Assembly (NCBI RefSeq): GCF_000307105.1
Contig: NC_018645.1
Span: forward strand, 2,317,501 to 2,381,500
Reading direction: 5' to 3'
Length of the DNA: 64,000 nucleotides
From: Desulfobacula toluolica Tol2
Lineage (GTDB): Bacteria > Desulfobacterota > Desulfobacteria > Desulfobacterales > Desulfobacteraceae
The translations under genes and the position numbers were made by a program. The notes under the pieces are model-generated. The model was not told the DNA's origin. It saw only the letters and a list, made by a program, of their open reading frames with translations, and ran no database searches. Of the stretch, positions 41,725-61,155 are shown in pieces. The number at the start of each line of letters is the position of its first letter. The stretch's first letter is position 1.

Positions 41725-41745
41725 GATGCTGCTGATAATAGCACA

Positions 41746-41873: not shown

Positions 41874-41914
41874 TGACACTGTTCTCTCTTAACACGCGAC
41901 TATCATTAAAAATA

Positions 41915-43258: not shown

Positions 43259-45189
43259 ATCGGGATAGGACCCCCCATCACTGAGGAGCCCTCCCACACC
43301 ACCGGACATACGGATCGCGTATCCGGCGGTTCGGCTGATCAGGCAGATTAGTTCCCGGGCAGAAATAATCCAAGAGAAAGGAAATATTTGTTTGGCAGAG
43401 CCATGACAACCCATTTAACCCTGCTCATGCGCCAGTGTTTCTTGCGGGAATTTCCGCAAGTGACGGCATATTGAAACGGTATGCCTCGTTTAAGCAGGTT
43501 CCGGATTTTCGTTCCGGGATTTTTCCACTGTTTCCATACAACACATCTCAAGCGGCGGATAATCCAGCCGTTCAAGGACTTGAATATGTGTCTTGCTTCG
43601 GTGAGACAGTAATAATTCCACCATCCCCTGATGTACATATTCAATTTATCAATGATCTGGGGAAGACTTAGACCACAGTTCCGGTTTGTTAATTCTCGAA
43701 CCCTTTCTTTGAAGCGCTCGATTGTTTTCCGGTGTATGCGGATCTTGGTCTTGCCGCACATACTGATAAATGTGTAGCCGAGAAATTTGTCCAGCCATGG
43801 TCGGCTGACCTTGCTTTTCTCTTCATTGACCTTGAGCCTGAGCTTTACGGTTATAAACCGTGTAACACTTTTCATAACACGTTCGGCCGCTTTCTTGCTC
43901 TTGAGATATATGACAAAGTCATCAGCGTATCTGACAAATTTATGCCCTCTTTTCTCCAACTCTTTATCCAGTTCATCCAAAACGATATTTGAGATCACTG
44001 GTGAAAGAGGGCCGCCTTGAGGAGTTCCTTCAGCGGCAGATACAACCACCCCGTCGATCATGACACCGGCTGTTAAGTAACTTCGGATAAGCTTGAGAAC
44101 CCGCTTATCCTTTATTCTTTCAGCCAGACGGCTCATGAGGCGGTCATGGTTCACTCTGTCGAAAAATTTGGAAAGATCCATATTAACAGAGTGTGTATAT
44201 CCTGAGAGCAGATAAACTTTGCCTTGGAGTATGGCATCATGCTGGGATCTTCCAGGTCTGAATCCATGACTGGACTCAGAAAAATGCGGGTCCCATATTT
44301 GCTGCAATATCTCGCTGACGGCTTGCTGGATCAAACGATCCAAAACTGTTGGAATGCCGAGCAGTCTTACTCCGCCATCGGGTTTAGGAATTTCTTTCCT
44401 TTTCACCGGTAATGGCTTGTAGTTTCCCTGCAGCAACTTTCCCTTAACTTTGGGCCAGTGGCGTCTGAGGTAACCCGGTAGTTGATCAACGGTCATGTTG
44501 TCGATTCCAGGTGCCCCTTTGTTGCTACGGACCCTTTTTAATGCTCTGAACATGTTTCCCCTTTCAAGGATAAACTCCATGAGTCGGGAACTTTCTGTCG
44601 GACTTTCGGTGATCTGTAACGCTGTGAACATTTCCATCTGCTGTGGCAATATGTCCATAAGTATACACCTCCTATTTGTCTCTATCATTTACCCGTACCA
44701 TTCGGTCCGGGCACCGTTCGGGCCTTCACCGGGGTGAGTCCTCCGTGGAATTCACGGCTCGTTTTCCTGCGGCTACTATGCCCTCTGCTGACTTCTTCCA
44801 TGCGGTCGGAGCAGGTTACCCTGCCCTCAGCCAATTTCTGCCGCACGCGGCATCCCAGGGCAGCATGGAAGATCTCCCGGGGTAAAACACACGTCTTTCA
44901 ATACGTGGGTGCCGAGTATACGGACATTGCCTATAATGGATAGAGGACTTTACCTTGTGTTGCAGGCTCGTCCCGCAAATGCACGCCTAACTCGATTTCT
45001 GTACGTCACCCCGTACTTTTGTGCCACTCCGCCTCGGCGAAGCCACTGCCTTCCGGAGTACCGTCACCGGGACCCCGTTGTGATAACACTATGCCCTTCG
45101 CCTCCATCTGGCTGGGCTTGGGACTTGCCTTGACTTCCATAAAGGAAGATGCAGGCTCACCCTTAAGACGTGTGCCGTGCCCGGCACAC
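43259..45189 (-). mobile_element. Group IIC intron, copy 1 (downstream of a tandem pair)
   Basis: A full 1931-bp group II intron on the minus strand. Its 5' end is GTGTGCCGGG at 45189 and its 3' end ...CCCGAT at 43259. Domain V lies at 43290-43332: GAACCGCCGGATACG, CGA loop region, then GTCCGGTGGTGTGGGAGG, a form typical of class C introns. Class C introns insert after hairpins such as terminators or the folded attC bottom strand. About 500 bp of ribozyme domains precede the maturase ORF. Its 5' exon is copy 2, not attC. Confidence 0.93.
43348..44658 (-). CDS. ltrA: Group IIC intron reverse transcriptase/maturase, copy 1
   Basis: A 436-aa multifunctional intron-encoded protein: reverse transcriptase (GAPGIDNMTVDQL, LLGIPTVLDRLIQQAV, SHGFRPGRSQHDAI, MDLSKFFDRVNHD, GTPQGGPLSPVISNIVLDELD, catalytic RYADDFVIY near residue 235) and maturase X domain with a GIIM tail (IDKLNMYIRGWWNYY). 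There is no HNH endonuclease, as usual for class C. The ATG at 44658 is chosen because AGGAGG stands 9 nt upstream; a 10-codon longer frame is open. Confidence 0.95.
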   Translation of the reverse strand: MDILPQQMEMFTALQITESPTESSRLMEFILERGNMFRALKRVRSNKGAPGIDNMTVDQLPGYLRRHWPKVKGKLLQGNYKPLPVKRKEIPKPDGGVRLLGIPTVLDRLIQQAVSEILQQIWDPHFSESSHGFRPGRSQHDAILQGKVYLLSGYTHSVNMDLSKFFDRVNHDRLMSRLAERIKDKRVLKLIRSYLTAGVMIDGVVVSAAEGTPQGGPLSPVISNIVLDELDKELEKRGHKFVRYADDFVIYLKSKKAAERVMKSVTRFITVKLRLKVNEEKSKVSRPWLDKFLGYTFISMCGKTKIRIHRKTIERFKERVRELTNRNCGLSLPQIIDKLNMYIRGWWNYYCLTEARHIFKSLNGWIIRRLRCVVWKQWKNPGTKIRNLLKRGIPFQYAVTCGNSRKKHWRMSRVKWVVMALPNKYFLSLGLFLPGN

Positions 45190-47120
45190 ATCGGGATAGG
45201 ACCCCCCATCACTGAGGAGCCCTCCCACACCACCGGACATACGGATCGCGTATCCGGCGGTTCGGCTGATCAGGCAGATTAGTTCCCGGGCAGAAATAAT
45301 CCAAGAGAAAGGAAATATTTGTTTGGCAGAGCCATGACAACCCATTTAACCCTGCTCATGCGCCAGTGTTTCTTGCGGGAATTTCCGCAAGTGACGGCAT
45401 ATTGAAACGGTATGCCTCGTTTAAGCAGGTTCCGGATTTTCGTTCCGGGATTTTTCCACTGTTTCCATACAACACATCTCAAGCGGCGGATAATCCAGCC
45501 GTTCAAGGACTTGAATATGTGTCTTGCTTCGGTGAGACAGTAATAATTCCACCATCCCCTGATGTACATATTCAATTTATCAATGATCTGGGGAAGACTT
45601 AGACCACAGTTCCGGTTTGTTAATTCTCGAACCCTTTCTTTGAAGCGCTCGATTGTTTTCCGGTGTATGCGGATCTTGGTCTTGCCGCACATACTGATAA
45701 ATGTGTAGCCGAGAAATTTGTCCAGCCATGGTCGGCTGACCTTGCTTTTCTCTTCATTGACCTTGAGCCTGAGCTTTACGGTTATAAACCGTGTAACACT
45801 TTTCATAACACGTTCGGCCGCTTTCTTGCTCTTGAGATATATGACAAAGTCATCAGCGTATCTGACAAATTTATGCCCTCTTTTCTCCAACTCTTTATCC
45901 AGTTCATCCAAAACGATATTTGAGATCACTGGTGAAAGAGGGCCGCCTTGAGGAGTTCCTTCAGCGGCAGATACAACCACCCCGTCGATCATGACACCGG
46001 CTGTTAAGTAACTTCGGATAAGCTTGAGAACCCGCTTATCCTTTATTCTTTCAGCCAGACGGCTCATGAGGCGGTCATGGTTCACTCTGTCGAAAAATTT
46101 GGAAAGATCCATATTAACAGAGTGTGTATATCCTGAGAGCAGATAAACTTTGCCTTGGAGTATGGCATCATGCTGGGATCTTCCAGGTCTGAATCCATGA
46201 CTGGACTCAGAAAAATGCGGGTCCCATATTTGCTGCAATATCTCGCTGACGGCTTGCTGGATCAAACGATCCAAAACTGTTGGAATGCCGAGCAGTCTTA
46301 CTCCGCCATCGGGTTTAGGAATTTCTTTCCTTTTCACCGGTAATGGCTTGTAGTTTCCCTGCAGCAACTTTCCCTTAACTTTGGGCCAGTGGCGTCTGAG
46401 GTAACCCGGTAGTTGATCAACGGTCATGTTGTCGATTCCAGGTGCCCCTTTGTTGCTACGGACCCTTTTTAATGCTCTGAACATGTTTCCCCTTTCAAGG
46501 ATAAACTCCATGAGTCGGGAACTTTCTGTCGGACTTTCGGTGATCTGTAACGCTGTGAACATTTCCATCTGCTGTGGCAATATGTCCATAAGTATACACC
46601 TCCTATTTGTCTCTATCATTTACCCGTACCATTCGGTCCGGGCACCGTTCGGGCCTTCACCGGGGTGAGTCCTCCGTGGAATTCACGGCTCGTTTTCCTG
46701 CGGCTACTATGCCCTCTGCTGACTTCTTCCATGCGGTCGGAGCAGGTTACCCTGCCCTCAGCCAATTTCTGCCGCACGCGGCATCCCAGGGCAGCATGGA
46801 AGATCTCCCGGGGTAAAACACACGTCTTTCAATACGTGGGTGCCGAGTATACGGACATTGCCTATAATGGATAGAGGACTTTACCTTGTGTTGCAGGCTC
46901 GTCCCGCAAATGCACGCCTAACTCGATTTCTGTACGTCACCCCGTACTTTTGTGCCACTCCGCCTCGGCGAAGCCACTGCCTTCCGGAGTACCGTCACCG
47001 GGACCCCGTTGTGATAACACTATGCCCTTCGCCTCCATCTGGCTGGGCTTGGGACTTGCCTTGACTTCCATAAAGGAAGATGCAGGCTCACCCTTAAGAC
47101 GTGTGCCGTGCCCGGCACAC
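45190..47120 (-). mobile_element. Group IIC intron, copy 2 (directly abutting copy 1)
   Basis: A second 1931-bp copy, 5' end at 47120 and 3' end at 45190. Its 5' exon is the bottom strand of attC 2 (ending CGCCTGTT) and its 3' exon begins with the first base of copy 1, so the two introns touch with no exon between. The maturases are identical to the residue. The arrangement implies a later insertion of copy 2 at the same target, after copy 1, since the 5' exon hairpin remained intact. Confidence 0.93.
45279..46589 (-). CDS. ltrA: Group IIC intron reverse transcriptase/maturase, copy 2
   Basis: Identical in sequence to the copy at 43348-44658 (436 aa; RYADD catalytic core, maturase domain, no endonuclease domain). 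Same AGGAGG-supported start. Either copy can supply protein for both introns. Confidence 0.95.
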   Translation of the reverse strand: MDILPQQMEMFTALQITESPTESSRLMEFILERGNMFRALKRVRSNKGAPGIDNMTVDQLPGYLRRHWPKVKGKLLQGNYKPLPVKRKEIPKPDGGVRLLGIPTVLDRLIQQAVSEILQQIWDPHFSESSHGFRPGRSQHDAILQGKVYLLSGYTHSVNMDLSKFFDRVNHDRLMSRLAERIKDKRVLKLIRSYLTAGVMIDGVVVSAAEGTPQGGPLSPVISNIVLDELDKELEKRGHKFVRYADDFVIYLKSKKAAERVMKSVTRFITVKLRLKVNEEKSKVSRPWLDKFLGYTFISMCGKTKIRIHRKTIERFKERVRELTNRNCGLSLPQIIDKLNMYIRGWWNYYCLTEARHIFKSLNGWIIRRLRCVVWKQWKNPGTKIRNLLKRGIPFQYAVTCGNSRKKHWRMSRVKWVVMALPNKYFLSLGLFLPGN

Positions 47121-47261: not shown

Positions 47262-47969
47262 ATGAAACTGATTTTTTTTGACGAAGCAAAGAATGATGAC
47301 GGCTATCCTCACTACCACATTGGCGGTATTGGCATAGACGAAGAACACTTGGCTGAAGTTGAGGCGCGCATTAATGAAGTCGTTGAGGAGGCATTTGGCA
47401 GCTCGCGGTTAGAACGCGGCAATGAACTTCATGCTACCGAGATTTACCACCGGAAAAAAAACTTTAAAGATTGGGTAAATTTTAAACAGCGAGTGGCGCT
47501 CTTCGATAAACTGATGCAGATACTTTCAATGCCACAGTTGAACTTAATTGATGTTCAGATTAATGCAGGAAAGCTTTGGCAAAACCAAGTTCCTGACGAG
47601 GTTGCTTTCATGTTCTTTTGCGAGAGAGCCAACGACCTTTGCAAGGCTCAGTCTTGCCTGGGGATGTTGATCGGGGATCGGGAGAGCGACAGGGTAGCCG
47701 AACGATATGCTGGCAGTTTATCTGGTTATCGGGCTATTGGCACAGATTTCGCGTTTGGTAGAGACATCAAAAGCTTGGTTGATTCTGTACATTTCACCCA
47801 CTCTCACCTTAGCCGCTTCTTGCAACTGGCGGATATCTATACTTGGCTTCTCCAGTTTCGCAACCGCAATCACGGTTCTGATAACTTTCGCCATCAAGCC
47901 ATTTTCGATATCTGGGATAAAGAAGAGATCACTATTTATCCGTCAAAGTACAAAGAGTGGCCGAAGTAA
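47262..47969 (+). CDS. DUF3800 domain-containing protein (cassette 3)
   Basis: A 235-aa protein starting at ATG 47262. LIFFDEAKNDDGYPHYHIGGIGID carries the N-terminal acidic DE of DUF3800. ELHATEIYH, DQ-less middle helices and HLSRFLQLADIYTWLLQFRNR complete the RNase H-like pattern. DUF3800 proteins are common in cassettes, phages and defence islands, and a nuclease role is suspected for the fold. A weak site precedes the ATG; expression may depend on an upstream promoter, which the two opposing introns would now block. Confidence 0.8.
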   Translation: MKLIFFDEAKNDDGYPHYHIGGIGIDEEHLAEVEARINEVVEEAFGSSRLERGNELHATEIYHRKKNFKDWVNFKQRVALFDKLMQILSMPQLNLIDVQINAGKLWQNQVPDEVAFMFFCERANDLCKAQSCLGMLIGDRESDRVAERYAGSLSGYRAIGTDFAFGRDIKSLVDSVHFTHSHLSRFLQLADIYTWLLQFRNRNHGSDNFRHQAIFDIWDKEEITIYPSKYKEWPK

Positions 47970-48178: not shown

Positions 48179-48439
48179 ATGAAAAGCATAGCTGGAAAAC
48201 TGAAGCAGTTTAAAAACAGTCCGAAAGATGTCAAGTTTTCAGAATTATGCAAAGTTTGTGATTTTTACTTTGGTGACGCGAGACAATCAGGCTCAAGCCA
48301 TAGAGTATACAAAACCCCTTGGAGAGGAGACCCTCGTGTTAATATCCAGAACTCTAAAGGAAAAGCAAAGGCCTACCAAGTCAAGCAAGTCCTAAAAGCC
48401 ATTGAGCGTTTGGAGGTGGAGAATGGTAATAAAAAATGA
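48179..48439 (+). CDS. hicA: HicA-like toxin (cassette 4)
   Basis: An 86-aa HicA-type protein, longer than cassette 1 HicA. FSELCKVCDFYFGDARQSGSSHRVYKTPW holds the SSHRVY block with the likely active His. RVNIQNSKGKAKAYQVKQVLKAIE is typical of this HicA subgroup. The nearly leaderless start sits 7 bp after the -10. Its end overlaps hicB-2 by 17 bp. Confidence 0.85.
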   Translation: MKSIAGKLKQFKNSPKDVKFSELCKVCDFYFGDARQSGSSHRVYKTPWRGDPRVNIQNSKGKAKAYQVKQVLKAIERLEVENGNKK

Positions 48440-48752
48440 TCACTACACATACCGAGTAACTTGGTCAGCCGATGACGATGAGTATATTGGTCTGTGTGCA
48501 GAGTTTCCAAGTTTAAGCTGGTTGACTGAAACGCCTGAAGCCGCTTTGAAAGGTATCCGAAATTTAGTTGCCGATGTGGTAACGGATATGAAGAGGAATA
48601 AAGAAAAAATTCCTAAACCTATCGCTATTAAAAATTATAGCGGTAAATTTATGGTTCGTGTTCCGCCAGATGTTCATCGTACTCTTGCTATCAAAGCAGC
48701 AGAAGCTGGTGTAAGTCTAAATCGTCTTGCAAGTTCCAAATTAAGTCACTGA
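48423..48752 (+). CDS. hicB: HicB-like antitoxin (cassette 4)
   Basis: A 109-aa antitoxin. The N-terminal HicB fold (YRVTWSADDDEYIGLCAEFPSLSW, then TETPEAALKGIRNLVADVV) and a C-terminal ribbon-helix-helix (KFMVRVPPDVHRTLAIKAAEAGVSLNRLAS) are clear. ATG 48423 is backed by GGAGG inside hicA; a TTG 21 nt upstream is open but less likely. The cassette's attC is now 2.4 kb away because an IS91-like element sits between. Confidence 0.88.
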   Translation: MVIKNDHYTYRVTWSADDDEYIGLCAEFPSLSWLTETPEAALKGIRNLVADVVTDMKRNKEKIPKPIAIKNYSGKFMVRVPPDVHRTLAIKAAEAGVSLNRLASSKLSH

Positions 48753-49106: not shown

Positions 49107-50192
49107 TTATCCGGGCCTGCCTCTTGGTTCCGGCTTTGCAAAGAAAATAAATTTCAAATCATGCCCGCAATGGCTGCATTTAATACCCGGTATTTCAAGT
49201 TCCGGGATTTTAATAAAAAGAGCAATAATGTCATGGATGAATGAGATGAGTTCACGGATTTTTTCTATGGACAATGCGCTGTTGGGATTGAGAAATCCAT
49301 AATGTCTAATTTTCATAAACCCTTTGGGAAGAACATGCTGCAAGAATCGTCGGATAAACTCCATGGCATCCAATGCCATAGTTTTCCACTTCTTTTTTTC
49401 ACGGTCTTTATACAAAAATTTGATGACGCCATTTTCAATGCTTTTAATACGATTATTGGAGATGGCAACCCGGAACACATATCTTGAAAGATAGCGCAGG
49501 GAATTTTGTCCCTGCCCCACGGCCTGGCTGTCAATCACCCATTGCTGTTTCCATACTGCGGAATCAATTTTATCGAGCAGCCCGGCTTTTTTTATGGCAT
49601 CTTTGAATTTGGCTTTAAAAATGACCGCCAGAGGTTTTGTGTGAACAAACAGATCCTGTCTGGAAGAAAGCCATTGGTCATTATCAGATAAAGCACCTCC
49701 GGGAATTATTATATGCAAATGTGGATGATACTGAAGCATGCCGCCCCATGTGTGGAGGGCTGCCAGATATCCGATTCGATCAGATCCGATAAACCGTGTA
49801 TCTTGTGCCAGTTTTTTCAGGGCTTCATTGGTGCATGAAAACAGGGCACCATAAGATAATTTTTGATGAGACCTTACAACATCCCGCAGGCCCTGGGGAA
49901 GTGTAATGGTTAACAGGAAATAATAGGTCGGCAGCAGCTTTTTCATCTGCTGATCCAGCCATTGGTCCGCTTTACTCTGCTGACAGTTGGGACAATGACG
50001 ATTGCCGCAGCAGCAGTGAATAAAATGCAGATTACGGCAGTCATCACATTCATACACCATTGTTCCAAAGGAACCCTTTCTGCAGGCACTGATATCCCGT
50101 ATGGTTTTTTTATGAGACTTCGGCATTCGATCTCCATAAAGTGTCAGATATTTCGGCCCATACATTTGGAAGATTTTTTGAACAGCACTCAT
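49107..50192 (-). CDS. tnpA: IS91-family transposase (HUH, Y2), copy A
   Basis: A 361-aa rolling-circle transposase. The N-terminal zinc-binding region has ECDDCRNLHFIHCCCGNRHCPNCQQ (residues about 49-73). The HUH motif is HPHLH (near residue 155, QYHPHLHIIIPGG). The two catalytic tyrosines lie in SLRYLSRYVFR (YxxxY, near residue 235). The C-terminal IKCSHCGHDLKF is a second zinc-knuckle-like pair. The start overlaps the recombinase stop by 4 bp, so both are translated together. Confidence 0.93.
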   Translation of the reverse strand: MSAVQKIFQMYGPKYLTLYGDRMPKSHKKTIRDISACRKGSFGTMVYECDDCRNLHFIHCCCGNRHCPNCQQSKADQWLDQQMKKLLPTYYFLLTITLPQGLRDVVRSHQKLSYGALFSCTNEALKKLAQDTRFIGSDRIGYLAALHTWGGMLQYHPHLHIIIPGGALSDNDQWLSSRQDLFVHTKPLAVIFKAKFKDAIKKAGLLDKIDSAVWKQQWVIDSQAVGQGQNSLRYLSRYVFRVAISNNRIKSIENGVIKFLYKDREKKKWKTMALDAMEFIRRFLQHVLPKGFMKIRHYGFLNPNSALSIEKIRELISFIHDIIALFIKIPELEIPGIKCSHCGHDLKFIFFAKPEPRGRPG

Positions 50193-51064
50193 GACAACAC
50201 CCCCTGCATGACTTTGGAAACTTTGTCATTGGAATCAACTTGGGCCTGTGTGGTCACATGCAGATAAATCATGGTGCTTTTAAGGGTTTTATGGCCTAAT
50301 ATTTTTTGCACATGGCGTATGGGGATATTAGCTTCCAGCAAATGCGTCGCATAGGCATGGCGGAAGACATGAGGGTGAACATGTTTTTTAAACTTCAGGC
50401 GTTTCAAAGTAGATCGCAAAACGCCTTGAACCCCACTGTCACTGACATGATTTTTGGCATATTGAGCGTCCTTACCGCCATTGCGGCCCAAAGCAGGGAA
50501 TATCCATTTTGAATTGCGATGGGTTTTATAGTATTTGCGCAACGTCAACAGGGTTATTTTGGGTAAAGGCACCGTCCTGTCCATGGCACCCTTTCCACCG
50601 TGAATATGCACAAGTCCCCTGTCGGAAAGAATATCTTTGACCTGAAGTGTTGTTGCCTCCCTTAAACGCAGTCCCATGGAATATAATGTCAAATAAAATG
50701 CATGACTTTGCACAGTGGGAAGGGCATAAATAATCTTTCTGACTTCCTCCAGACTCAGAATAGTCGGTAAGGTCTGCTCACGCTTCCATTTGATGTCGTT
50801 GAAAATGTTCCAGGACCGGACCAGCGTTTTGGTAAAAAAATGCTGAATACCAGAGTAACTGATCCGCAGAGTAGCAGCGCTCCAGCCGAATTCATTCTGG
50901 CAGCAAAGCCAGTATTGACGGAGCTGTTCTTCAGTGATATCTTCTAATGGTTTATTGTAAAAGCGCTGTAGTCTTAAAACCGAACTGGTATAGGATTGAA
51001 TGCTCCTTTTTGCATAACCGGCAAGTTGGAGATCTTCTTTAAAACGTTTGATTAAATTGCTCAT
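50189..51064 (-). CDS. Tyrosine recombinase of the IS91-like element, copy A
   Basis: A 291-aa phage-integrase family protein: SAM-like core-binding domain (LAGYAKRSIQSYTSSVLRLQRFY), then Arg in YSMGLRLREATTLQ, Lys in GGKGAMDRTVPL, HPHVFRHAYATHLL, GH and Tyr in LGHKTLKSTMIYLH. It lacks the IntI-specific insertion, so it is not a second integron integrase. Such recombinases accompany some IS91 relatives. GGAAG lies 7 nt before the ATG, within one arm of a 17-bp inverted repeat. Confidence 0.92.
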   Translation of the reverse strand: MSNLIKRFKEDLQLAGYAKRSIQSYTSSVLRLQRFYNKPLEDITEEQLRQYWLCCQNEFGWSAATLRISYSGIQHFFTKTLVRSWNIFNDIKWKREQTLPTILSLEEVRKIIYALPTVQSHAFYLTLYSMGLRLREATTLQVKDILSDRGLVHIHGGKGAMDRTVPLPKITLLTLRKYYKTHRNSKWIFPALGRNGGKDAQYAKNHVSDSGVQGVLRSTLKRLKFKKHVHPHVFRHAYATHLLEANIPIRHVQKILGHKTLKSTMIYLHVTTQAQVDSNDKVSKVMQGVLS

Positions 51065-51192: not shown

Positions 51193-51315
51193 AACAGGCG
51201 GGTGAACCGGACAGCAAGGGTCTCCTTCTTTTTAAAGGTTAAAAAAACTTTTGGATGATGTGCTTCCAATGAATTTTATTGGAAACCCTTGCTGCCCGTT
51301 ACCCAAGCGTTAACA
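51193..51315 (+). repeat. attC site 4 (left edge displaced by IS91-like copy A)
   Basis: AAC at 51193-51195 directly follows the element's CTTG end; GTTAACA at 51309-51315 closes the site. Arms are intact, with small changes in the loop (GGATGATGTGCTTCCAATG). It closes the hicAB-2 cassette. Confidence 0.9.
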
Positions 51316-51328
51316 TAAAAAAACAGTT

Positions 51329-51784
51329 ATGAATATGAATTACGTTATTTGTGGTCCTCCTGGTAGCGGGAAAACTACTTATGTAAAAAAAGAATCAAAT
51401 AGTGGTGATTTGATCATTGATATGGATGCTTTATCTCACGCAATATCTGGACAACCTTGGTATCAAAAGCCATCTCACATTCTACCATTCGTAAAAAGTG
51501 TTCGAGATCATTTGTATAAGCTGATAGTAGAGCCACCAATTAATGGTCATTTCAATAATTCATGGGTTATCAATTGGGGTGCCCTTGCTAAAGATAGAGA
51601 GCAATTGAAAAAATTATTAAATTCGAAAGTTATAATACTTGAAACTTGTGAAAAAGAATGTTTGAGGCGAATAAAAAATGATTCACGGAGAAGTGACAAT
51701 ATCGATAGTTGGGAAAAGCTAATTAAAAAATGGTGGAATGAATACGAACGACAAGAAGGCGATACAATAATAGGCTTTGATTAA
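51329..51784 (+). CDS. Small P-loop kinase-like ATPase (cassette 5, gene 1)
   Basis: A 151-aa AAA_33/kinase-like protein. Walker A is CGPPGSGKTTYVKK (residues about 8-21). IIDMDALSHAISGQPWYQKP follows, a pattern shared with small phage-type nucleotide or RNA kinases. KVIILETCEKECLRRIKND holds the lid-like Arg residues. No clear Shine-Dalgarno is seen; MNYVICGPP at 51335 is an alternative start. It begins 14 bp after attC 4 and precedes a nucleotidyltransferase by 27 bp. The substrate is unknown. Codon use is strongly AT-rich across this cassette. Confidence 0.8.
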   Translation: MNMNYVICGPPGSGKTTYVKKESNSGDLIIDMDALSHAISGQPWYQKPSHILPFVKSVRDHLYKLIVEPPINGHFNNSWVINWGALAKDREQLKKLLNSKVIILETCEKECLRRIKNDSRRSDNIDSWEKLIKKWWNEYERQEGDTIIGFD

Positions 51785-51811
51785 TGATATTGTCAAATAT
51801 GGCTGGTTAAT

Positions 51812-52981
51812 ATGGGAAATAATATAAAAACATTTTACAAATTAAAGGACTTGCTACTCAGCTCTACAAATTGCAATTTCACATACAGGTTTCCTGACAA
51901 TAGGACTTTCATAGCAAGCTTTATTCATAATAGCAACAACAAGAAAGAGATCATAGTCAATGATATTTTATGTAATGATTTTAGAAAGCTAAACTATTTG
52001 AAATCTGAAATATCTAAATGCCCGAACTATATATCAATATGGGATCATAGACGAAGATTATTGTTTTCAGAAGAAGATTATAAAAAGTACAAAGAGACAG
52101 TATTTAATGGATTGCCATCAATAGGTGGAATTAATTATGTTTACAAAAATGATAGTATTAGTAAAAAAAAACATAAAAATTTCATCAGAGATATAGAAGA
52201 ATCTATAGATCCATTTTTCACTTCTCATCAACTGACTTCCACTATTATTGCTAAGTTTATCAACTCATTGCTTGATGAAGTTGGGATTTGTTGTCACAGC
52301 ATAATTCCATCTGGATCTATTGCTCGACGTACTTGCATTACGAAAAATAAGCATACTATTGATTATGATTATCTAGTAGAGTTGGATACTTTTGATGATG
52401 ATAATATATTGCAAGCATGTAATTTGTTTGCAGAAAAAACCTCTGCCAAAATTCTTGAAGGAAATCGCCCCTCTCAGTGGCACTTAGGAGAAGTGCAATT
52501 TCATGATAAAATTATTGATGTTGATGTGACATTTATACTCAAATTGCCAAATAATATTGTAATTACGCATATGGCCAAACAGCTGCAATATACTAATATC
52601 TTAAAAAATCATGGGGAATCTGTATTAAAGTCTATCTTAGCCAATATAATTGCTGCAAAATCAATATTTAAAAATGCCTTAACCTCAAAGGCTTCAAACG
52701 TGGTAGGGTTAGGAGGCATTGGAATCGAGACATGGATAGTTCAGAGTGGGGGATCAATGCTGAATGCATTTATTGATTTCAAAACAATTTTTTCTCAGAA
52801 CCTATATGATATCCCTCCAGAAGTGTACAATTCTGAATTATTATTATTTAATGATCCTGGGGTTGCGCACAAAAAAGACTTAATGAATGACAATTATTTG
52901 GTTTCTTTATTTTCTAACCAGAAGGATAAAAGTATACAACATATGATATCGATTGTAGATTCGTATTTAGAGCAAATTTAG
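51812..52981 (+). CDS. Pol-beta superfamily nucleotidyltransferase (cassette 5, gene 2)
   Basis: A 389-aa protein. The N-terminal 125 residues are not recognised. Around residue 165 the NT core shows PSGSIARRTCITKNKHTIDYDYLVELD: GS plus the metal-binding DYD. IIDVDVTFIL near 230 supplies the third acidic residue. The region GIGIETWIVQSGGSMLNAFIDF (near residue 305) resembles the helical domain of class I CCA-adding and OAS/CD-NTase enzymes. It could therefore add nucleotides to an RNA or make a small nucleotide signal. It is followed 2 bp later by the phosphoribosyltransferase gene, in clear operon order. Confidence 0.78.
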   Translation: MGNNIKTFYKLKDLLLSSTNCNFTYRFPDNRTFIASFIHNSNNKKEIIVNDILCNDFRKLNYLKSEISKCPNYISIWDHRRRLLFSEEDYKKYKETVFNGLPSIGGINYVYKNDSISKKKHKNFIRDIEESIDPFFTSHQLTSTIIAKFINSLLDEVGICCHSIIPSGSIARRTCITKNKHTIDYDYLVELDTFDDDNILQACNLFAEKTSAKILEGNRPSQWHLGEVQFHDKIIDVDVTFILKLPNNIVITHMAKQLQYTNILKNHGESVLKSILANIIAAKSIFKNALTSKASNVVGLGGIGIETWIVQSGGSMLNAFIDFKTIFSQNLYDIPPEVYNSELLLFNDPGVAHKKDLMNDNYLVSLFSNQKDKSIQHMISIVDSYLEQI

Positions 52982-52983
52982 TT

Positions 52984-53676
52984 ATGGATAAATCAAAAAG
53001 TTCCTTTATATCTTTAATGTGGAATGCTGGAGCCATAAAGACAAGCAGCATTTTTGAGAATAAAGATATACTCTTTAACTCTTCCGGGTATGCTACTCCT
53101 ATCTTTATTGACGTAAACGCAATTTTATCAGATGTAAAACTGTTCGAAAAAATTATGAAGTTGTTAATAGAAGACAATATACATAAAATCAGCAATATAG
53201 ATATTGTTTGTGGAGTAGCATCAGGAGGATTAATTCCAGCGTGGTTAGCTGCCAAGCAGCTTTCATTGAAACTTAACAAAAATATCGGGACAATATATAT
53301 TAAATTTGAAAATAAGATAGATTTTTCATCAAATAATAGTATTTCCGGACTCACTAAAAACCAAACAGGAAAATGTTGTAATTGTTTGGTCATAGATGAT
53401 GTTGTGCATTACTCTAGACATTCTTTAGCTTCAATGGATACCTTAATTGAATATGGAATCAAAGTCAGAAGTGTTGGCTCTTTAGTGACGTATGAAAATC
53501 CAATAGCAACCAAAAATTTTTCAAAATATGAAATAACACATTTTTCTTTTTGTTCTGCCAGAGAAATTATTATTTTTCTGCATGAAAATGCTCTTATAAA
53601 TAATGATGTATTCCAAGATTTATCTTCTTTTATTGACAATCCGTCACTATGGAGAAAACATAACAAACTACCTTGA
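52984..53676 (+). CDS. OPRT-like phosphoribosyltransferase (cassette 5, gene 3)
   Basis: A 230-aa type I phosphoribosyltransferase-like protein. The hood and loop text is IDIVCGVASGGLIPAWLAAKQL (residues about 75-96), like the GVATGG loop of orotate PRTase. The PRPP motif is CLVIDDVVHYSRHSLASMDTL (near residue 135), with the two acidic residues kept but the usual TTGGS replaced by YSRHS. The altered loop could change substrate or reduce catalysis. The downstream transporter gene starts 20 bp after its stop. Confidence 0.78.
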   Translation: MDKSKSSFISLMWNAGAIKTSSIFENKDILFNSSGYATPIFIDVNAILSDVKLFEKIMKLLIEDNIHKISNIDIVCGVASGGLIPAWLAAKQLSLKLNKNIGTIYIKFENKIDFSSNNSISGLTKNQTGKCCNCLVIDDVVHYSRHSLASMDTLIEYGIKVRSVGSLVTYENPIATKNFSKYEITHFSFCSAREIIIFLHENALINNDVFQDLSSFIDNPSLWRKHNKLP

Positions 53677-53695
53677 TCTGAAGGAAATAACAAAA

Positions 53696-54373
53696 ATGGC
53701 CAACTATAATACTATTAACAATTCATTTAGCGACAAATCTCTTAGAACATATATTATCCTATGTTCTGTTTTTTGTGGTAGTTTGGTTATGAATACAGTT
53801 ATAGGAACAAAAATTGCTCATATTGGAGGGCTTTACGTCCCTGCAGGTATTTTCTTGTGGAGTTTAACATTTCCAATAACTGACATTGTTAGTGAGGTCT
53901 ATGGTAAGAAATATGCTATGTATTTTGTTATTGGAGGAGCAATAGTTTTGCTGTTATCATTAACATCTATTCAGTTTGCAATCTTGCTACCATCTGCACC
54001 TTTCTGGACAAAGCAAGAAGCTTATAAAGCTGTCCTTGATAGCAATACTCGGACATTGTTCGCTGCAATTTGTAGTTTTTTAATATCTCAATTCGCTGAT
54101 GTAACAATTTTTAGTTGGCTTAGGCATAAAACAACTGGAAGGTTTTTATGGTTAAGAAACAATGTTTCTACATTCATTTCTCAATCATTAGCTTGTGGTG
54201 TCTTCCTCCTAGTTGCTTTTGGAGGGACAATTAGCCCAGAAAGCATGATAAAACTATTTTCAACTAATTTGATTGCAAGATGGTTATTAGCTCTTACTGA
54301 CACACCAATTGTTTATCTTGGTGTAACAACCATCTATAGAATGCACCCTCAGCTCGCTAATGACCACTATTGA
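53696..54373 (+). CDS. Queuosine precursor transporter (YhhQ/VUT family; cassette 5, gene 4)
   Basis: A 225-aa integral membrane protein of the Vut_1 (PF02592) type, which in other bacteria imports preQ0/preQ1 or queuine. Six or more helices are seen. The diagnostic blocks are NTVIGTKIAHIGGLYVPAGIFLWSLTFPITDIVSEVYGKK (split here: SEVYGKK), FADVTIFSWLRHKT and LIARWLLALTDTPIVYLG. ATG 53696 has AAGGA 9 nt upstream; the longer open frame from 53603 overlaps gene 3. Its presence in a cassette with a PRTase, nucleotidyltransferase and kinase is unusual. Confidence 0.88.
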   Translation: MANYNTINNSFSDKSLRTYIILCSVFCGSLVMNTVIGTKIAHIGGLYVPAGIFLWSLTFPITDIVSEVYGKKYAMYFVIGGAIVLLLSLTSIQFAILLPSAPFWTKQEAYKAVLDSNTRTLFAAICSFLISQFADVTIFSWLRHKTTGRFLWLRNNVSTFISQSLACGVFLLVAFGGTISPESMIKLFSTNLIARWLLALTDTPIVYLGVTTIYRMHPQLANDHY

Positions 54374-54506
54374 ATAATGAAATTATAAATCTCAAAAGTT
54401 ACATTTACGTTGCTTTTGAATGAAAATTCATGTCAATTATATAGAGATTTTGAGCATCCATTTTAGGGGCTTGTAGGCAATTATTTTATAGAACAACATA
54501 AATGTT

Positions 54507-56437
54507 ATCGGGATAGGACCCCCCATCACTGAGGAGCCCTCCCACACCACCGGACATACGGATCGCGTATCCGGCGGTTCGGCTGATCAGGCAGATTAGT
54601 TCCCGGGCAGAAATAATCCAAGAGAAAGGAAATATTTGTTTGGCAGAGCCATGACAACCCATTTAACCCTGCTCATGCGCCAGTGTTTCTTGCGGGAATT
54701 TCCGCAAGTGACGGCATATTGAAACGGTATGCCTCGTTTAAGCAGGTTCCGGATTTTCGTTCCGGGATTTTTCCACTGTTTCCATACAACACATCTCAAG
54801 CGGCGGATAATCCAGCCGTTCAAGGACTTGAATATGTGTCTTGCTTCGGTGAGACAGTAATAATTCCACCATCCCCTGATGTACATATTCAATTTATCAA
54901 TGATCTGGGGAAGACTTAGACCACAGTTCCGGTTTGTTAATTCTCGAACCCTTTCTTTGAAGCGCTCGATTGTTTTCCGGTGTATGCGGATCTTGGTCTT
55001 GCCGCACATACTGATAAATGTGTAGCCGAGAAATTTGTCCAGCCATGGTCGGCTGACCTTGCTTTTCTCTTCATTGACCTTGAGCCTGAGCTTTACGGTT
55101 ATAAACCGTGTAACACTTTTCATAACACGTTCGGCCGCTTTCTTGCTCTTGAGATATATGACAAAGTCATCAGCGTATCTGACAAATTTATGCCCTCTTT
55201 TCTCCAACTCTTTATCCAGTTCATCCAAAACGATATTTGAGATCACTGGTGAAAGAGGGCCGCCTTGAGGAGTTCCTTCAGCGGCAGATACAACCACCCC
55301 GTCGATCATGACACCGGCTGTTAAGTAACTTCGGATAAGCTTGAGAACCCGCTTATCCTTTATTCTTTCAGCCAGACGGCTCATGAGGCGGTCATGGTTC
55401 ACTCTGTCGAAAAATTTGGAAAGATCCATATTAACAGAGTGTGTATATCCTGAGAGCAGATAAACTTTGCCTTGGAGTATGGCATCATGCTGGGATCTTC
55501 CAGGTCTGAATCCATGACTGGACTCAGAAAAATGCGGGTCCCATATTTGCTGCAATATCTCGCTGACGGCTTGCTGGATCAAACGATCCAAAACTGTTGG
55601 AATGCCGAGCAGTCTTACTCCGCCATCGGGTTTAGGAATTTCTTTCCTTTTCACCGGTAATGGCTTGTAGTTTCCCTGCAGCAACTTTCCCTTAACTTTG
55701 GGCCAGTGGCGTCTGAGGTAACCCGGTAGTTGATCAACGGTCATGTTGTCGATTCCAGGTGCCCCTTTGTTGCTACGGACCCTTTTTAATGCTCTGAACA
55801 TGTTTCCCCTTTCAAGGATAAACTCCATGAGTCGGGAACTTTCTGTCGGACTTTCGGTGATCTGTAACGCTGTGAACATTTCCATCTGCTGTGGCAATAT
55901 GTCCATAAGTATACACCTCCTATTTGTCTCTATCATTTACCCGTACCATTCGGTCCGGGCACCGTTCGGGCCTTCACCGGGGTGAGTCCTCCGTGGAATT
56001 CACGGCTCGTTTTCCTGCGGCTACTATGCCCTCTGCTGACTTCTTCCATGCGGTCGGAGCAGGTTACCCTGCCCTCAGCCAATTTCTGCCGCACGCGGCA
56101 TCCCAGGGCAGCATGGAAGATCTCCCGGGGTAAAACACACGTCTTTCAATACGTGGGTGCCGAGTATACGGACATTGCCTATAATGGATAGAGGACTTTA
56201 CCTTGTGTTGCAGGCTCGTCCCGCAAATGCACGCCTAACTCGATTTCTGTACGTCACCCCGTACTTTTGTGCCACTCCGCCTCGGCGAAGCCACTGCCTT
56301 CCGGAGTACCGTCACCGGGACCCCGTTGTGATAACACTATGCCCTTCGCCTCCATCTGGCTGGGCTTGGGACTTGCCTTGACTTCCATAAAGGAAGATGC
56401 AGGCTCACCCTTAAGACGTGTGCCGTGCCCGGCACAC
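54507..56437 (-). mobile_element. Group IIC intron, copy 3
   Basis: A 1931-bp copy identical in size and borders to copies 1 and 2: 5' end GTGTG at 56437, 3' end CCCGAT at 54507, domain V at 54538-54580. It is inserted on the bottom strand of attC 5, right after CGCCTGTT. The 133 bp between the transporter stop and the intron (54374-54506) hold no recognisable gene. Confidence 0.93.
54596..55906 (-). CDS. ltrA: Group IIC intron reverse transcriptase/maturase, copy 3
   Basis: Residue-for-residue identical to copies 1 and 2 (RYADD, maturase domain, no endonuclease). The start at 55906 is again supported by AGGAGG. Confidence 0.95.
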   Translation of the reverse strand: MDILPQQMEMFTALQITESPTESSRLMEFILERGNMFRALKRVRSNKGAPGIDNMTVDQLPGYLRRHWPKVKGKLLQGNYKPLPVKRKEIPKPDGGVRLLGIPTVLDRLIQQAVSEILQQIWDPHFSESSHGFRPGRSQHDAILQGKVYLLSGYTHSVNMDLSKFFDRVNHDRLMSRLAERIKDKRVLKLIRSYLTAGVMIDGVVVSAAEGTPQGGPLSPVISNIVLDELDKELEKRGHKFVRYADDFVIYLKSKKAAERVMKSVTRFITVKLRLKVNEEKSKVSRPWLDKFLGYTFISMCGKTKIRIHRKTIERFKERVRELTNRNCGLSLPQIIDKLNMYIRGWWNYYCLTEARHIFKSLNGWIIRRLRCVVWKQWKNPGTKIRNLLKRGIPFQYAVTCGNSRKKHWRMSRVKWVVMALPNKYFLSLGLFLPGN

Positions 56438-56559
56438 AACAGGCGGGTGAACCGGACAGCAAGGGTCTCCTTCTTTTAAAGGTTGAAAAAACTTTTGAAT
56501 GATGTGCTTTCAATCAACTTTCTTGGAAACCCTTGCTGCCCGTTACCCAAGCGTTAGAA
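56438..56559 (+). repeat. attC site 5 (left edge displaced by intron copy 3)
   Basis: AAC at 56438-56440 directly follows the intron; GTTAGAA (56553-56559) closes the site. Two bases are missing from the T run in the loop relative to the others (CTTCTTTTAAAGG). It closes the four-gene cassette, which now carries the intron as well. Confidence 0.9.
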
Positions 56560-56576
56560 TCTTACGGGAGAATATT

Positions 56577-56777
56577 TTGGATACCATCACAGAATGGATT
56601 AACAGCAATTACACATGGATATTCAGTGGGATTGGAGTTCTCATAATAGGCTCAATAATCACCTTTTTTAAAAAGAAAAGTTCAAACGTCATCAATAGAA
56701 GTCAGCGTTCAGGGAATAATTCTACTAATATTCAGGCAGGTGGAAATGTTGAGTTTACTCAAAAAAATGACAAATAA
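56577..56777 (+). CDS. Small membrane protein with C-terminal GNNSTNIQ motif (cassette 6, gene 1)
   Basis: A 66-aa protein starting at TTG 56577, with GGGAG 6 nt upstream. The open frame extends back through attC, but those residues are attC-encoded. One membrane helix (WIFSGIGVLIIGSIITFF) is followed by a basic stretch (KKKSSNVINRSQR) and the tail SGNNSTNIQAGGNVEF. The tail motif reappears near the N-terminus of the next protein. The gene overlaps it by 32 bp. A membrane anchor or partner for gene 2 is the natural guess. Confidence 0.65.
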   Translation: MDTITEWINSNYTWIFSGIGVLIIGSIITFFKKKSSNVINRSQRSGNNSTNIQAGGNVEFTQKNDK

Positions 56778-57822
56778 ATCCAATCAAAAGCAAGACGCTG
56801 GTGATAACTCCACAAATTTACAAGGCCAGCAAGTTATTGTGAATCAAGGCATTTCCTACGCAGACGCAAAAGAAATTGCGAATGATGTGTTCAAGGCTAA
56901 TTTTATTGAGTTAAAAAAAGAAGCTGCTGCTATTGCACAAAAAAGAGCAGAAGAGGTTACTGACAAAATAATCTCACAGCTTACAGAACGGCATCCTGAG
57001 TCTATTGGTGAATTTGAACAACCAGCAATGCAAGATGCCCTATTCACTGTACAAAAACAGTATGCTATGAGCGGAGACGAGGATCTTGGGGATTTGCTTG
57101 TAGATATCTTAGTTGATCGAGCTTCTGAGCCTAAGAGAAATATGGTGCAAATTGTACTTGATGAATCACTTAGTATTGCTCCTAAATTAACAATCGAACA
57201 ATTAGACACATTAACTCTAAATTTTCTATTAGTCAGCACCAGACGAATAGATGTGAAAAACTATAATGAGCTTGTAGCTCACTTTAATAAAAGAATCATC
57301 CCCTTTGTGGAGAACTTGTCTGATTCCCACTCTGATTATACCCATATTGAGTATTTAGGCTGTGGCCATGTTAGAACAGGAAATTATGGCCAATTAGAAA
57401 AGCGACTCAGAGAAACATATAAAGCATTTTTTTCCAAAGGTTTTACTGAAGAAGAGTTAGTTGACGAGATTGGTGAAGAACATAACCTGCAAGGGTTAAT
57501 TATTCCGTGTTTCCATGAACCGACAAAGTTGCAAATCGGTGTGTTTGATGAAGATGTTCTTGAGCGAATAATTGATAAAAATGGACTTAGTGAAGAAATA
57601 AAAAATAAACTAAAACAATATTGGCAAAATACTACAAAATCACAAGGCGAAGTGAAAACGATGCTTCTGGAGGCAATACCAGAGATGGAAAAGATTTTCG
57701 ATGTTTGGGGCAAAGCATCTTTTAATCGACTTGAACTGACCAGCGTAGGCATCGCAATTGCTCATGCCAATTACAGAAGAAAGACCGGGGACACAATGGA
57801 TCTTTCTATATGGATAAAATAA
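56746..57822 (+). CDS. LPO_1073/Vpar_1526-like protein (cassette 6, gene 2)
   Basis: A 358-aa soluble protein resembling the LPO_1073/Vpar_1526 group, whose function is not established. It opens with AGDNSTNLQGQQVIVNQGISYADAKEIANDVF, then a helical stretch (KKEAAAIAQKRAEEVTDKIISQL) and a long conserved region (LDESLSIAPKLTIEQLDTLTLNFL; LRETYKAFFSKGFTEEEL; FNRLELTSVGIAIAHANYRR). Start choice: ATG 56746 with AGGTGGA; GTG 56740 and ATG 56767 are alternatives. Intron copy 4 begins 5 bp after the stop. Confidence 0.72.
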   Translation: MLSLLKKMTNKSNQKQDAGDNSTNLQGQQVIVNQGISYADAKEIANDVFKANFIELKKEAAAIAQKRAEEVTDKIISQLTERHPESIGEFEQPAMQDALFTVQKQYAMSGDEDLGDLLVDILVDRASEPKRNMVQIVLDESLSIAPKLTIEQLDTLTLNFLLVSTRRIDVKNYNELVAHFNKRIIPFVENLSDSHSDYTHIEYLGCGHVRTGNYGQLEKRLRETYKAFFSKGFTEEELVDEIGEEHNLQGLIIPCFHEPTKLQIGVFDEDVLERIIDKNGLSEEIKNKLKQYWQNTTKSQGEVKTMLLEAIPEMEKIFDVWGKASFNRLELTSVGIAIAHANYRRKTGDTMDLSIWIK

Positions 57823-57826
57823 TTCT

Positions 57827-59757
57827 ATCGGGATAGGACCCCCCATCACTGAGGAGCCCTCCCACACCACCGGACATACGGATCGCGTATCCGGCGGTTC
57901 GGCTGATCAGGCAGATTAGTTCCCGGGCAGAAATAATCCAAGAGAAAGGAAATATTTGTTTGGCAGAGCCATGACAACCCATTTAACCCTGCTCATGCGC
58001 CAGTGTTTCTTGCGGGAATTTCCGCAAGTGACGGCATATTGAAACGGTATGCCTCGTTTAAGCAGGTTCCGGATTTTCGTTCCGGGATTTTTCCACTGTT
58101 TCCATACAACACATCTCAAGCGGCGGATAATCCAGCCGTTCAAGGACTTGAATATGTGTCTTGCTTCGGTGAGACAGTAATAATTCCACCATCCCCTGAT
58201 GTACATATTCAATTTATCAATGATCTGGGGAAGACTTAGACCACAGTTCCGGTTTGTTAATTCTCGAACCCTTTCTTTGAAGCGCTCGATTGTTTTCCGG
58301 TGTATGCGGATCTTGGTCTTGCCGCACATACTGATAAATGTGTAGCCGAGAAATTTGTCCAGCCATGGTCGGCTGACCTTGCTTTTCTCTTCATTGACCT
58401 TGAGCCTGAGCTTTACGGTTATAAACCGTGTAACACTTTTCATAACACGTTCGGCCGCTTTCTTGCTCTTGAGATATATGACAAAGTCATCAGCGTATCT
58501 GACAAATTTATGCCCTCTTTTCTCCAACTCTTTATCCAGTTCATCCAAAACGATATTTGAGATCACTGGTGAAAGAGGGCCGCCTTGAGGAGTTCCTTCA
58601 GCGGCAGATACAACCACCCCGTCGATCATGACACCGGCTGTTAAGTAACTTCGGATAAGCTTGAGAACCCGCTTATCCTTTATTCTTTCAGCCAGACGGC
58701 TCATGAGGCGGTCATGGTTCACTCTGTCGAAAAATTTGGAAAGATCCATATTAACAGAGTGTGTATATCCTGAGAGCAGATAAACTTTGCCTTGGAGTAT
58801 GGCATCATGCTGGGATCTTCCAGGTCTGAATCCATGACTGGACTCAGAAAAATGCGGGTCCCATATTTGCTGCAATATCTCGCTGACGGCTTGCTGGATC
58901 AAACGATCCAAAACTGTTGGAATGCCGAGCAGTCTTACTCCGCCATCGGGTTTAGGAATTTCTTTCCTTTTCACCGGTAATGGCTTGTAGTTTCCCTGCA
59001 GCAACTTTCCCTTAACTTTGGGCCAGTGGCGTCTGAGGTAACCCGGTAGTTGATCAACGGTCATGTTGTCGATTCCAGGTGCCCCTTTGTTGCTACGGAC
59101 CCTTTTTAATGCTCTGAACATGTTTCCCCTTTCAAGGATAAACTCCATGAGTCGGGAACTTTCTGTCGGACTTTCGGTGATCTGTAACGCTGTGAACATT
59201 TCCATCTGCTGTGGCAATATGTCCATAAGTATACACCTCCTATTTGTCTCTATCATTTACCCGTACCATTCGGTCCGGGCACCGTTCGGGCCTTCACCGG
59301 GGTGAGTCCTCCGTGGAATTCACGGCTCGTTTTCCTGCGGCTACTATGCCCTCTGCTGACTTCTTCCATGCGGTCGGAGCAGGTTACCCTGCCCTCAGCC
59401 AATTTCTGCCGCACGCGGCATCCCAGGGCAGCATGGAAGATCTCCCGGGGTAAAACACACGTCTTTCAATACGTGGGTGCCGAGTATACGGACATTGCCT
59501 ATAATGGATAGAGGACTTTACCTTGTGTTGCAGGCTCGTCCCGCAAATGCACGCCTAACTCGATTTCTGTACGTCACCCCGTACTTTTGTGCCACTCCGC
59601 CTCGGCGAAGCCACTGCCTTCCGGAGTACCGTCACCGGGACCCCGTTGTGATAACACTATGCCCTTCGCCTCCATCTGGCTGGGCTTGGGACTTGCCTTG
59701 ACTTCCATAAAGGAAGATGCAGGCTCACCCTTAAGACGTGTGCCGTGCCCGGCACAC
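57827..59757 (-). mobile_element. Group IIC intron, copy 4 (at the end of IS91-like copy B)
   Basis: A 1931-bp copy, 5' end GTGTG at 59757, 3' end at 57827, domain V at 57858-57900. Unlike the other copies its 5' exon is not attC but the origin-side end of IS91-like copy B: hairpin, TTTATTTGTT, then the intron. Its 3' exon (minus strand) is AGAATTATTTT from the end of cassette 6. Confidence 0.93.
57916..59226 (-). CDS. ltrA: Group IIC intron reverse transcriptase/maturase, copy 4
   Basis: Identical to the other three 436-aa maturases. AGGAGG supports the start at 59226. Confidence 0.95.
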   Translation of the reverse strand: MDILPQQMEMFTALQITESPTESSRLMEFILERGNMFRALKRVRSNKGAPGIDNMTVDQLPGYLRRHWPKVKGKLLQGNYKPLPVKRKEIPKPDGGVRLLGIPTVLDRLIQQAVSEILQQIWDPHFSESSHGFRPGRSQHDAILQGKVYLLSGYTHSVNMDLSKFFDRVNHDRLMSRLAERIKDKRVLKLIRSYLTAGVMIDGVVVSAAEGTPQGGPLSPVISNIVLDELDKELEKRGHKFVRYADDFVIYLKSKKAAERVMKSVTRFITVKLRLKVNEEKSKVSRPWLDKFLGYTFISMCGKTKIRIHRKTIERFKERVRELTNRNCGLSLPQIIDKLNMYIRGWWNYYCLTEARHIFKSLNGWIIRRLRCVVWKQWKNPGTKIRNLLKRGIPFQYAVTCGNSRKKHWRMSRVKWVVMALPNKYFLSLGLFLPGN

Positions 59758-60069: not shown

Positions 60070-61155
60070 TTATCCGGGCCTGCCTCTTGGTTCCGGCTTT
60101 GCAAAGAAAATAAATTTCAAATCATGCCCGCAATGGCTGCATTTAATACCCGGTATTTCAAGTTCCGGGATTTTAATAAAAAGAGCAATAATGTCATGGA
60201 TGAATGAGATGAGTTCACGGATTTTTTCTATGGACAATGCGCTGTTGGGATTGAGAAATCCATAATGTCTAATTTTCATAAACCCTTTGGGAAGAACATG
60301 CTGCAAGAATCGTCGGATAAACTCCATGGCATCCAATGCCATAGTTTTCCACTTCTTTTTTTCACGGTCTTTATACAAAAATTTGATGACGCCATTTTCA
60401 ATGCTTTTAATACGATTATTGGAGATGGCAACCCGGAACACATATCTTGAAAGATAGCGCAGGGAATTTTGTCCCTGCCCCACGGCCTGGCTGTCAATCA
60501 CCCATTGCTGTTTCCATACTGCGGAATCAATTTTATCGAGCAGCCCGGCTTTTTTTATGGCATCTTTGAATTTGGCTTTAAAAATGACCGCCAGAGGTTT
60601 TGTGTGAACAAACAGATCCTGTCTGGAAGAAAGCCATTGGTCATTATCAGATAAAGCACCTCCGGGAATTATTATATGCAAATGTGGATGATACTGAAGC
60701 ATGCCGCCCCATGTGTGGAGGGCTGCCAGATATCCGATTCGATCAGATCCGATAAACCGTGTATCTTGTGCCAGTTTTTTCAGGGCTTCATTGGTGCATG
60801 AAAACAGGGCACCATAAGATAATTTTTGATGAGACCTTACAACATCCCGCAGGCCCTGGGGAAGTGTAATGGTTAACAGGAAATAATAGGTCGGCAGCAG
60901 CTTTTTCATCTGCTGATCCAGCCATTGGTCCGCTTTACTCTGCTGACAGTTGGGACAATGACGATTGCCGCAGCAGCAGTGAATAAAATGCAGATTACGG
61001 CAGTCATCACATTCATACACCATTGTTCCAAAGGAACCCTTTCTGCAGGCACTGATATCCCGTATGGTTTTTTTATGAGACTTCGGCATTCGATCTCCAT
61101 AAAGTGTCAGATATTTCGGCCCATACATTTGGAAGATTTTTTGAACAGCACTCAT
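60070..61155 (-). CDS. tnpA: IS91-family transposase (HUH, Y2), copy B
   Basis: Identical to the copy A protein (361 aa; zinc-binding Cys cluster, HPHLH, YLSRY). Coupled by a 4-bp overlap to the recombinase gene. Confidence 0.93.
   Translation of the reverse strand: MSAVQKIFQMYGPKYLTLYGDRMPKSHKKTIRDISACRKGSFGTMVYECDDCRNLHFIHCCCGNRHCPNCQQSKADQWLDQQMKKLLPTYYFLLTITLPQGLRDVVRSHQKLSYGALFSCTNEALKKLAQDTRFIGSDRIGYLAALHTWGGMLQYHPHLHIIIPGGALSDNDQWLSSRQDLFVHTKPLAVIFKAKFKDAIKKAGLLDKIDSAVWKQQWVIDSQAVGQGQNSLRYLSRYVFRVAISNNRIKSIENGVIKFLYKDREKKKWKTMALDAMEFIRRFLQHVLPKGFMKIRHYGFLNPNSALSIEKIRELISFIHDIIALFIKIPELEIPGIKCSHCGHDLKFIFFAKPEPRGRPG

Follow-up and report, generated by a model that had tools for sequence, protein, structure and literature searches.

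A stretch of 64,000 nucleotides of the Desulfobacula toluolica Tol2 genome (positions 2317501-2381500 of a single 5.2-Mb contig; hereafter the window, whose coordinates are used below) carries an integron cassette with four open reading frames (ORFs) arranged head to tail on the + strand. Numbered from left to right, the genes are:

Gene 1, 51329-51784, + strand: P-loop kinase of 151 aa with the Walker A motif GPPGSGKTT, a DMD motif and an RRIKNDSRR stretch; matches AAA_17 and phrog_4581.
Gene 2, 51812-52981, + strand: predicted Pol beta-type nucleotidyltransferase of 389 aa with a sub-threshold SMODS match; GS at residues 168-169, D184/D186 and D236/D238.
Gene 3, 52984-53676, + strand: phosphoribosyltransferase (PRTase)-like protein of 230 aa, derived from orotate phosphoribosyltransferase (OPRT); PF00156 and TIGR00336 below cut-off, PyrE chains in the PDB, loop HYSRHS.
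Gene 4, 53696-54373, + strand: YhhQ/COG1738-type (Vut_1) transporter of 225 aa; PF02592 and TIGR00697 over cut-off.

The coordinates and order of the four genes at 51329-54373 had been proposed in an earlier reading of the DNA letters (the sequence-only reading) and were borne out by the ORF listing. The genes are separated by 27, 2 and 19 bases, with gene 3 starting 2 bases past the stop of gene 2. The probability of such open frames arising by chance at the local base composition was 3e-6, 7e-15, 4e-9 and 6e-9 for genes 1 to 4, respectively. The start of gene 4 was placed at 53696 because this position is preceded by AAGGA, a longer form from 53603 being possible. On the opposite strand, the four genes are overlapped by a 159-aa and a 94-aa ORF, both taken as shadows. 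The G+C content of the 51309-54500 segment was 31.6% relative to 40.8% for the region. The cassette contained no excess of sigma-70-like sites (17 on both strands versus 16.0, standard deviation 4.6, in shuffles), and no Rfam riboswitch match, the preQ1 type included, was obtained near the operon.

The sequence GCCCGTTACCCAAGCGTTA, corresponding to the attC 3' end, occurred eight times in the window with up to three mismatches, whereas none was expected. The scan of both strands of 204 kb around the window, with up to five mismatches allowed and CGTT fixed, revealed 20 attC 3' ends, all on the + strand. A total of 19 of them had no more than three mismatches and the remaining one (five mismatches, without the shared flank) was doubtful. 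No match was detected between 51312 and 56538, hence none separates the four genes. The following features define the cassette:

40729-41949, - strand: integron integrase IntI (TIGR02249, 404 bits, cut-off 265), located before the array.
51310-56553, + strand: integron cassette, bounded by an attC cut point on each side, with attC 3' ends at 51294-51312 and 56538-56556.
54507-56437, - strand: group II intron with a maturase ORF at 54596-55936; its insertion site is the attC of the cassette itself and not a gene.
56438-56556, + strand: remainder of the cassette attC 3' of the intron, which folds as a long hairpin.

An attC in the array orientation is present at both ends and the integrase adjoins the array, so that the assignment to an integron cassette stood. 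The limits given in the sequence-only reading did not, as the cassette continues beyond 54373, across the intron, to 56553. The intron splits the attC between GTT and AAC, and its ends were fixed by the comparison of four copies, the three others also lying within the window. Rfam models RF02001 and RF01998 matched it over the gathering score and RF00029 (domain V) below it, and the maturase matched TIGR04416 with 420 bits. Because 54507-56437 is occupied by the intron, the cassette without it measures about 3.3 kb and holds the four genes; its distance from the integrase is about 9 kb. The existence of the cassette, the arrangement of its genes and the four open frames are confirmed.

The domain calls made for the four genes proved right or plausible by family, PDB and motif evidence, with identifications of unequal strength, that of the transporter being firm. 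Gene 4 matched TIGR00697 with 121.3 bits (cut-off 50.95) and PF02592 with 143.8 bits (cut-off 27.2) over residues 25-214 of 225, which firmly places its product in the COG1738/QPTR (YhhQ-type) family, and it was the sole Vut_1 match in the genome. E. coli YhhQ, a COG1738 protein, was required for preQ0 transport in an indirect assay, and its authors proposed that some subfamilies serve other purines (PMC5372724). The presence of tgt, queA and queG in the host had been put forward as a check and was answered in part: TGT and QueA matches, as well as a QueC match, were found in the host genome, the search covering these three queuosine genes. The host probably makes queuosine itself. Unlike known QPTR genes, gene 4 is located beside kinase, nucleotidyltransferase and PRTase-like genes and not beside queuosine genes, and no preQ1 riboswitch was found. 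With TGT, QueA and QueC in the host, no other Vut_1 protein and no such riboswitch nearby, queuosine salvage offers no obvious reason for the presence of gene 4, and it is unlikely that a host with QueC needs this gene for queuosine.

These data bear on the explanation that the transporter is an independent importer of queuosine precursors, which shares the cassette with an unrelated three-gene module. The equivalog model TIGR00697 exceeded its cut-off, TGT and QueA occur in the host, and related transporters were found in 37 records of the plasmid collection, one of the five opened adjoining a QueF-like gene. The gap of only 19 bases from gene 3 to gene 4, with no attC match in it, argues against such independence, as do the host QueC and the missing preQ1 riboswitch, and this explanation was considered rather unlikely. 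In the Spartinivicinus plasmid (locus L056), the gene following the transporter (5699-6100), annotated as hypothetical, matched QueF (PF14489, 1.6e-14). In a Monoglobus plasmid record (locus L060, 4357-5663), a queuosine-precursor transporter gene was situated in a phage-like stretch near terminase genes, directly following a 213-aa gene without known family and with a ParB_N gene nearby.

By the family and structure comparisons, gene 3 is OPRT-derived. It matched the pyrE models NF001729 (6.7e-13; 48.5 against a cut-off of 245) and TIGR00336 (7.2e-12; 45.4 against 106.8 bits) far below their cut-offs, and PF00156 (Pribosyltran) with 25.0 bits, just under the cut-off of 26.3. PyrE chains topped the list of PDB matches (3dez, 1.9e-6), and the identity to the pyrE proteins of two genomes of the order was 26 and 24%. 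The alignments with PyrE structures 3dez and 2aee extended over residues 33-224 or 28-224, including the hood motif (SGxxxPIxxD) and TYExPxAxxNF; both this motif and the acidic pair that precedes the phosphoribosyl pyrophosphate (PRPP) loop are retained. The phosphate and flexible loops of PRTases bind PRPP and carry catalytic residues. The alteration of the PRTase loop claimed in the sequence-only reading was reproduced in the alignment with the two pyrE proteins, where the phosphate loop reads HYSRHS against TTGKSS and STGGSS and is not of the TTG(G/K)S type. The flexible loop is changed as well (KFENKIDFSS against R-EGKKEHGK and R-KKSKGYGK). Unlike PyrE, the gene 3 protein combines this loop with scores below the pyrE cut-offs, and no other pyrimidine gene is present in its cassette. 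The altered phosphate and flexible loops make orotate activity of the protein doubtful, and the retention of the hood motif and acidic pair beside changed loops is as expected if the substrate changed.

Judging from its matches, gene 1 encodes a P-loop kinase of a generic type that has its relatives among phage proteins. It matched AAA_17 in Pfam (30.1 bits, cut-off 27), and the closest profiles were phrog_4581 (1.2e-33) and phrog_9644 (1.2e-12), filed as terminase small subunit and head maturation protease. Matches were found in 29 phage records, with 26-43% identity among the 25 matches listed; most of these showed 26-34% identity over 74-90% of the protein, and those of mycobacteriophages 43% over 34%. 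The only PDB matches were adenylate-kinase-related chains (E 0.09). The phage P-loop kinase domains of phrog_4581 and phrog_9644, which carry terminase small subunit or polynucleotide kinase annotations, are similar to gene 1 in sequence. Unlike them, gene 1 is a separate gene in an integron cassette, without a terminase part.

Gene 2 is predicted to encode a nucleotidyltransferase, which would be active as such. The motifs GS, R-x-T, DxD and a second acidic pair occurred in this order in one of 200000 shuffles of the protein, a figure that flatters, the pattern having been written with this sequence in view. The best Pfam match was SMODS with 16.8 bits, below the cut-off of 26.5, accompanied by a repeat match at chance level. 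Nothing was found up to E 1 in NCBIfam or PADLOC or up to E 5 in the PDB, and PHROGs gave one match at E 0.41. The AlphaFold2 single-sequence model had a mean predicted local distance difference test (pLDDT) score of 33.2 and no usable fold. The nucleotidyltransferase call of the sequence-only reading is based on the motifs and the sub-threshold SMODS match, no family match exceeding a cut-off. The same GS...DxD...D order is found in the SMODS proteins, the cGAS/DncV-like nucleotidyltransferases (CD-NTases) of the cyclic oligonucleotide-based antiphage signalling system (CBASS). Unlike them, gene 2 scored below the SMODS cut-off and had no PADLOC match, and the cassette lacks a recognised CBASS effector or accessory gene. 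The gene 2 profile was also compared with five CD-NTases of the order, namely those with a retained frame among 10 loci. One match of 39 columns over the GS region was obtained (E 0.032, probability 1.6), and BLASTP against the same proteins gave nothing below 0.46; these weak scores were taken as no support for kinship with CD-NTases.

Two loci with nucleotidyltransferase genes were noted in passing, their gene names being read from the sequence except for the SMODS match. In a genome of the same genus, locus L073 (467-4770, - strand) contains patatin-like, CD-NTase, E1/E2-like and JAB-like genes and reads as a type II CBASS. At locus L072 (3226-6656), a nucleotidyltransferase gene (SMODS, 5.3e-15) follows a calcineurin-like phosphoesterase gene beside RAMP-like genes of a type III clustered regularly interspaced short palindromic repeats (CRISPR) system.

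A polynucleotide kinase-like gene 1 and a CCA-like gene 2 might form a module modifying RNA ends, in which nucleotides would be supplied or sensed by the PRTase-like protein. The kinase weakly matched phrog_505, a polynucleotide kinase, over residues 5-143 (E 0.0024), and the GLGGIGIE stretch of gene 2 presumably resembles that of archaeal CCA enzymes. The comparison with class I CCA-adding enzymes gave no CCA-family match for gene 2 up to E 1 in Pfam or NCBIfam, and no ligase or RNase was matched in the cassette, which leaves this explanation improbable.

The surroundings of the cassette were also inspected. Three of five tested frames in neighbouring cassettes had a family match, namely AbiGi-like (42696-43256), DUF3800 (47262-47969) and HicB-family (48402-48752) genes, and the frames 56740-57822 and 56499-56777 had none. 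Defence or toxin-antitoxin genes thus seem frequent in this section of the array, and a defence role of the four-gene cassette is a close rival explanation. Genes 1-3 would then form a defence or toxin-antitoxin-like module. Upon infection, the nucleotidyltransferase would produce a signal or block RNA ends, with the PRTase-like protein as a sensor or effector and the transporter as a passenger. The phage-related kinase and SMODS as the top Pfam match of gene 2 are consistent with such a role. According to PMC12548924, type III-A1 retrons usually have PRTase proteins as their effectors, which also favours it. On the other side, PADLOC was empty for genes 2-4 and gave the kinase only weak, Walker A-sized matches, no pore, nuclease or other known effector family was matched in the cassette, the SMODS match was sub-threshold and the CD-NTase profile comparison was weak.

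Mobile elements were also noted in the window. Four group II introns that are nearly identical and all lie on the - strand have their maturase ORFs at 43348-44688, 45279-46619, 54596-55936 and 57916-59256. Two of the four introns lie head to tail, and those of 45279 and 54596 are placed directly against an attC. A gene pair encoding a 361-aa protein, in our reading transposase-like, and a 291-aa tyrosine recombinase occurs in two copies (49107-51064 and 60070-62027); with the model of the recombinase, nine places in the genome matched at a nearly equal score.

Relatives of the individual genes were searched for in plasmids, phages, viral and genome contigs and in genomes of the phylum and order, cellular genomes outside the phylum being covered by contig scans and plasmid records only. 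The contig scans relied on short peptide patterns and so find close relatives only. For gene 2, tblastn of plasmids and phages (1e-5 and 10) yielded nothing but matches of 34 residues in four plasmid records, the genes concerned having a HAD hydrolase annotation. None of the pattern-matching stretches was confirmed in viral contigs (10, 64 and 61 stretches) or in genome contigs (50 and 67). The genome searches for gene 2 used overlapping draws, two from the phylum (148 and 395 genomes) and one from the order (389 genomes). Besides its own genome, matches were obtained in 17 of 395 phylum genomes at E <= 1 (best 0.032) and in 10 of 389 order genomes at E <= 0.05 (best 0.0037). Upon re-comparison, 27 of the 29 places, that is all except the two in genome G452, were judged to be chance, since no printed alignment keeps both GS and DxD. 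No relative of gene 2 was accepted from these collections.

The relatives found for gene 3 were pyrE-like only. They comprised two Listeria plasmid records (one annotated pyrE, one unannotated) and four unannotated Listeria phage records, all with 24.6% identity, and genes in two of 389 order genomes besides itself at 1e-4, both beside pyrimidine genes, as named from sequence. No stretch was confirmed in viral contigs (0 of 7 and 0 of 74) and no match was found in 297 phylum genomes besides itself at 1e-8. The cassette DNA matched only itself among 26 genomes of the genus, apart from a 45-base stretch at 84% identity taken as chance.

Taken as one unit, the four-gene operon is best read, tentatively, as a nucleobase-capture module, in line with the nucleobase route of the sequence-only reading. 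Although the leading explanation, it is possible and by no means probable. The YhhQ-type protein would import a purine-like base, probably a 7-deazapurine, and the OPRT-derived enzyme would join it to ribose phosphate. The P-loop kinase would phosphorylate the resulting nucleotide, and the Pol beta-type nucleotidyltransferase would transfer this nucleotide, or a derivative, to RNA, protein or another nucleotide. That the four act in one pathway, on this substrate and in this order, with a benefit in phage defence or in the use of a scarce base, is what we infer. In its favour, the genes are co-directional and tightly spaced with no attC match between them, their products by family handle bases, nucleotides or nucleoside triphosphates, and gene 2 retains the GS and DxD pairs. 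The findings on E. coli YhhQ, the lack of an obvious queuosine-salvage reason for gene 4 and the retained motifs beside changed loops in gene 3 also speak for it. Defence by genes 1-3, with the transporter as a passenger, comes close to nucleobase capture in likelihood. A more specific version, in which an unusual nucleotide is made from an imported 7-deazapurine-like base by an OPRT relative lacking the usual PRPP binding and goes to RNA ends or into a signal during phage attack, as an immune or RNA-marking system, was regarded as a long shot.

Several results weigh against nucleobase capture. No second example of the four-gene set was found in any of the collections searched, a co-occurrence test of little power as the searches reach distant relatives poorly. 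Gene 1 has its relatives among phage proteins, many of which carry a terminase small subunit annotation, and of its plasmid relatives (four records) the one opened had the gene just upstream of terminase genes. The gene 3 protein lacks the loop glycine, having S where pyrE and the PDB alignments have G, and its flexible loop is without the His/Tyr-Gly; the altered loops could mean that it no longer uses PRPP. In the five plasmid records opened, the 5 kb around the related transporter contained no annotated PRTase, nucleotidyltransferase or nucleotide kinase, in a gene table that is incomplete and includes hypothetical genes.

The lack of relatives of the set, together with the altered PRTase loops, the AT-rich composition and the distance of the cassette from the integrase, would also be compatible with a chance assembly or decaying genes without a joint function. 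All four frames are open, however, and the kinase, the nucleotidyltransferase and the transporter have preserved their motifs or family scores, so that this explanation was held to be doubtful. In agreement with the claim that no described system has this set, no description of it was found in the titles, beginnings of abstracts and passages covered, among the papers listed and with subscription journals mostly outside the scope.

The four-gene set is at present an isolated case and the family of one of its genes is uncertain, yet the set is odd and its altered OPRT relative is directly testable. The changed loops raise the biochemical question of which ligand is bound by a relative of OPRT whose phosphate loop departs from the usual type. 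If the four genes cooperate, COG1738 transporters and OPRT relatives would gain a role outside queuosine and pyrimidine synthesis, and integrons would move a whole pathway of base uptake and nucleotide making in one step.

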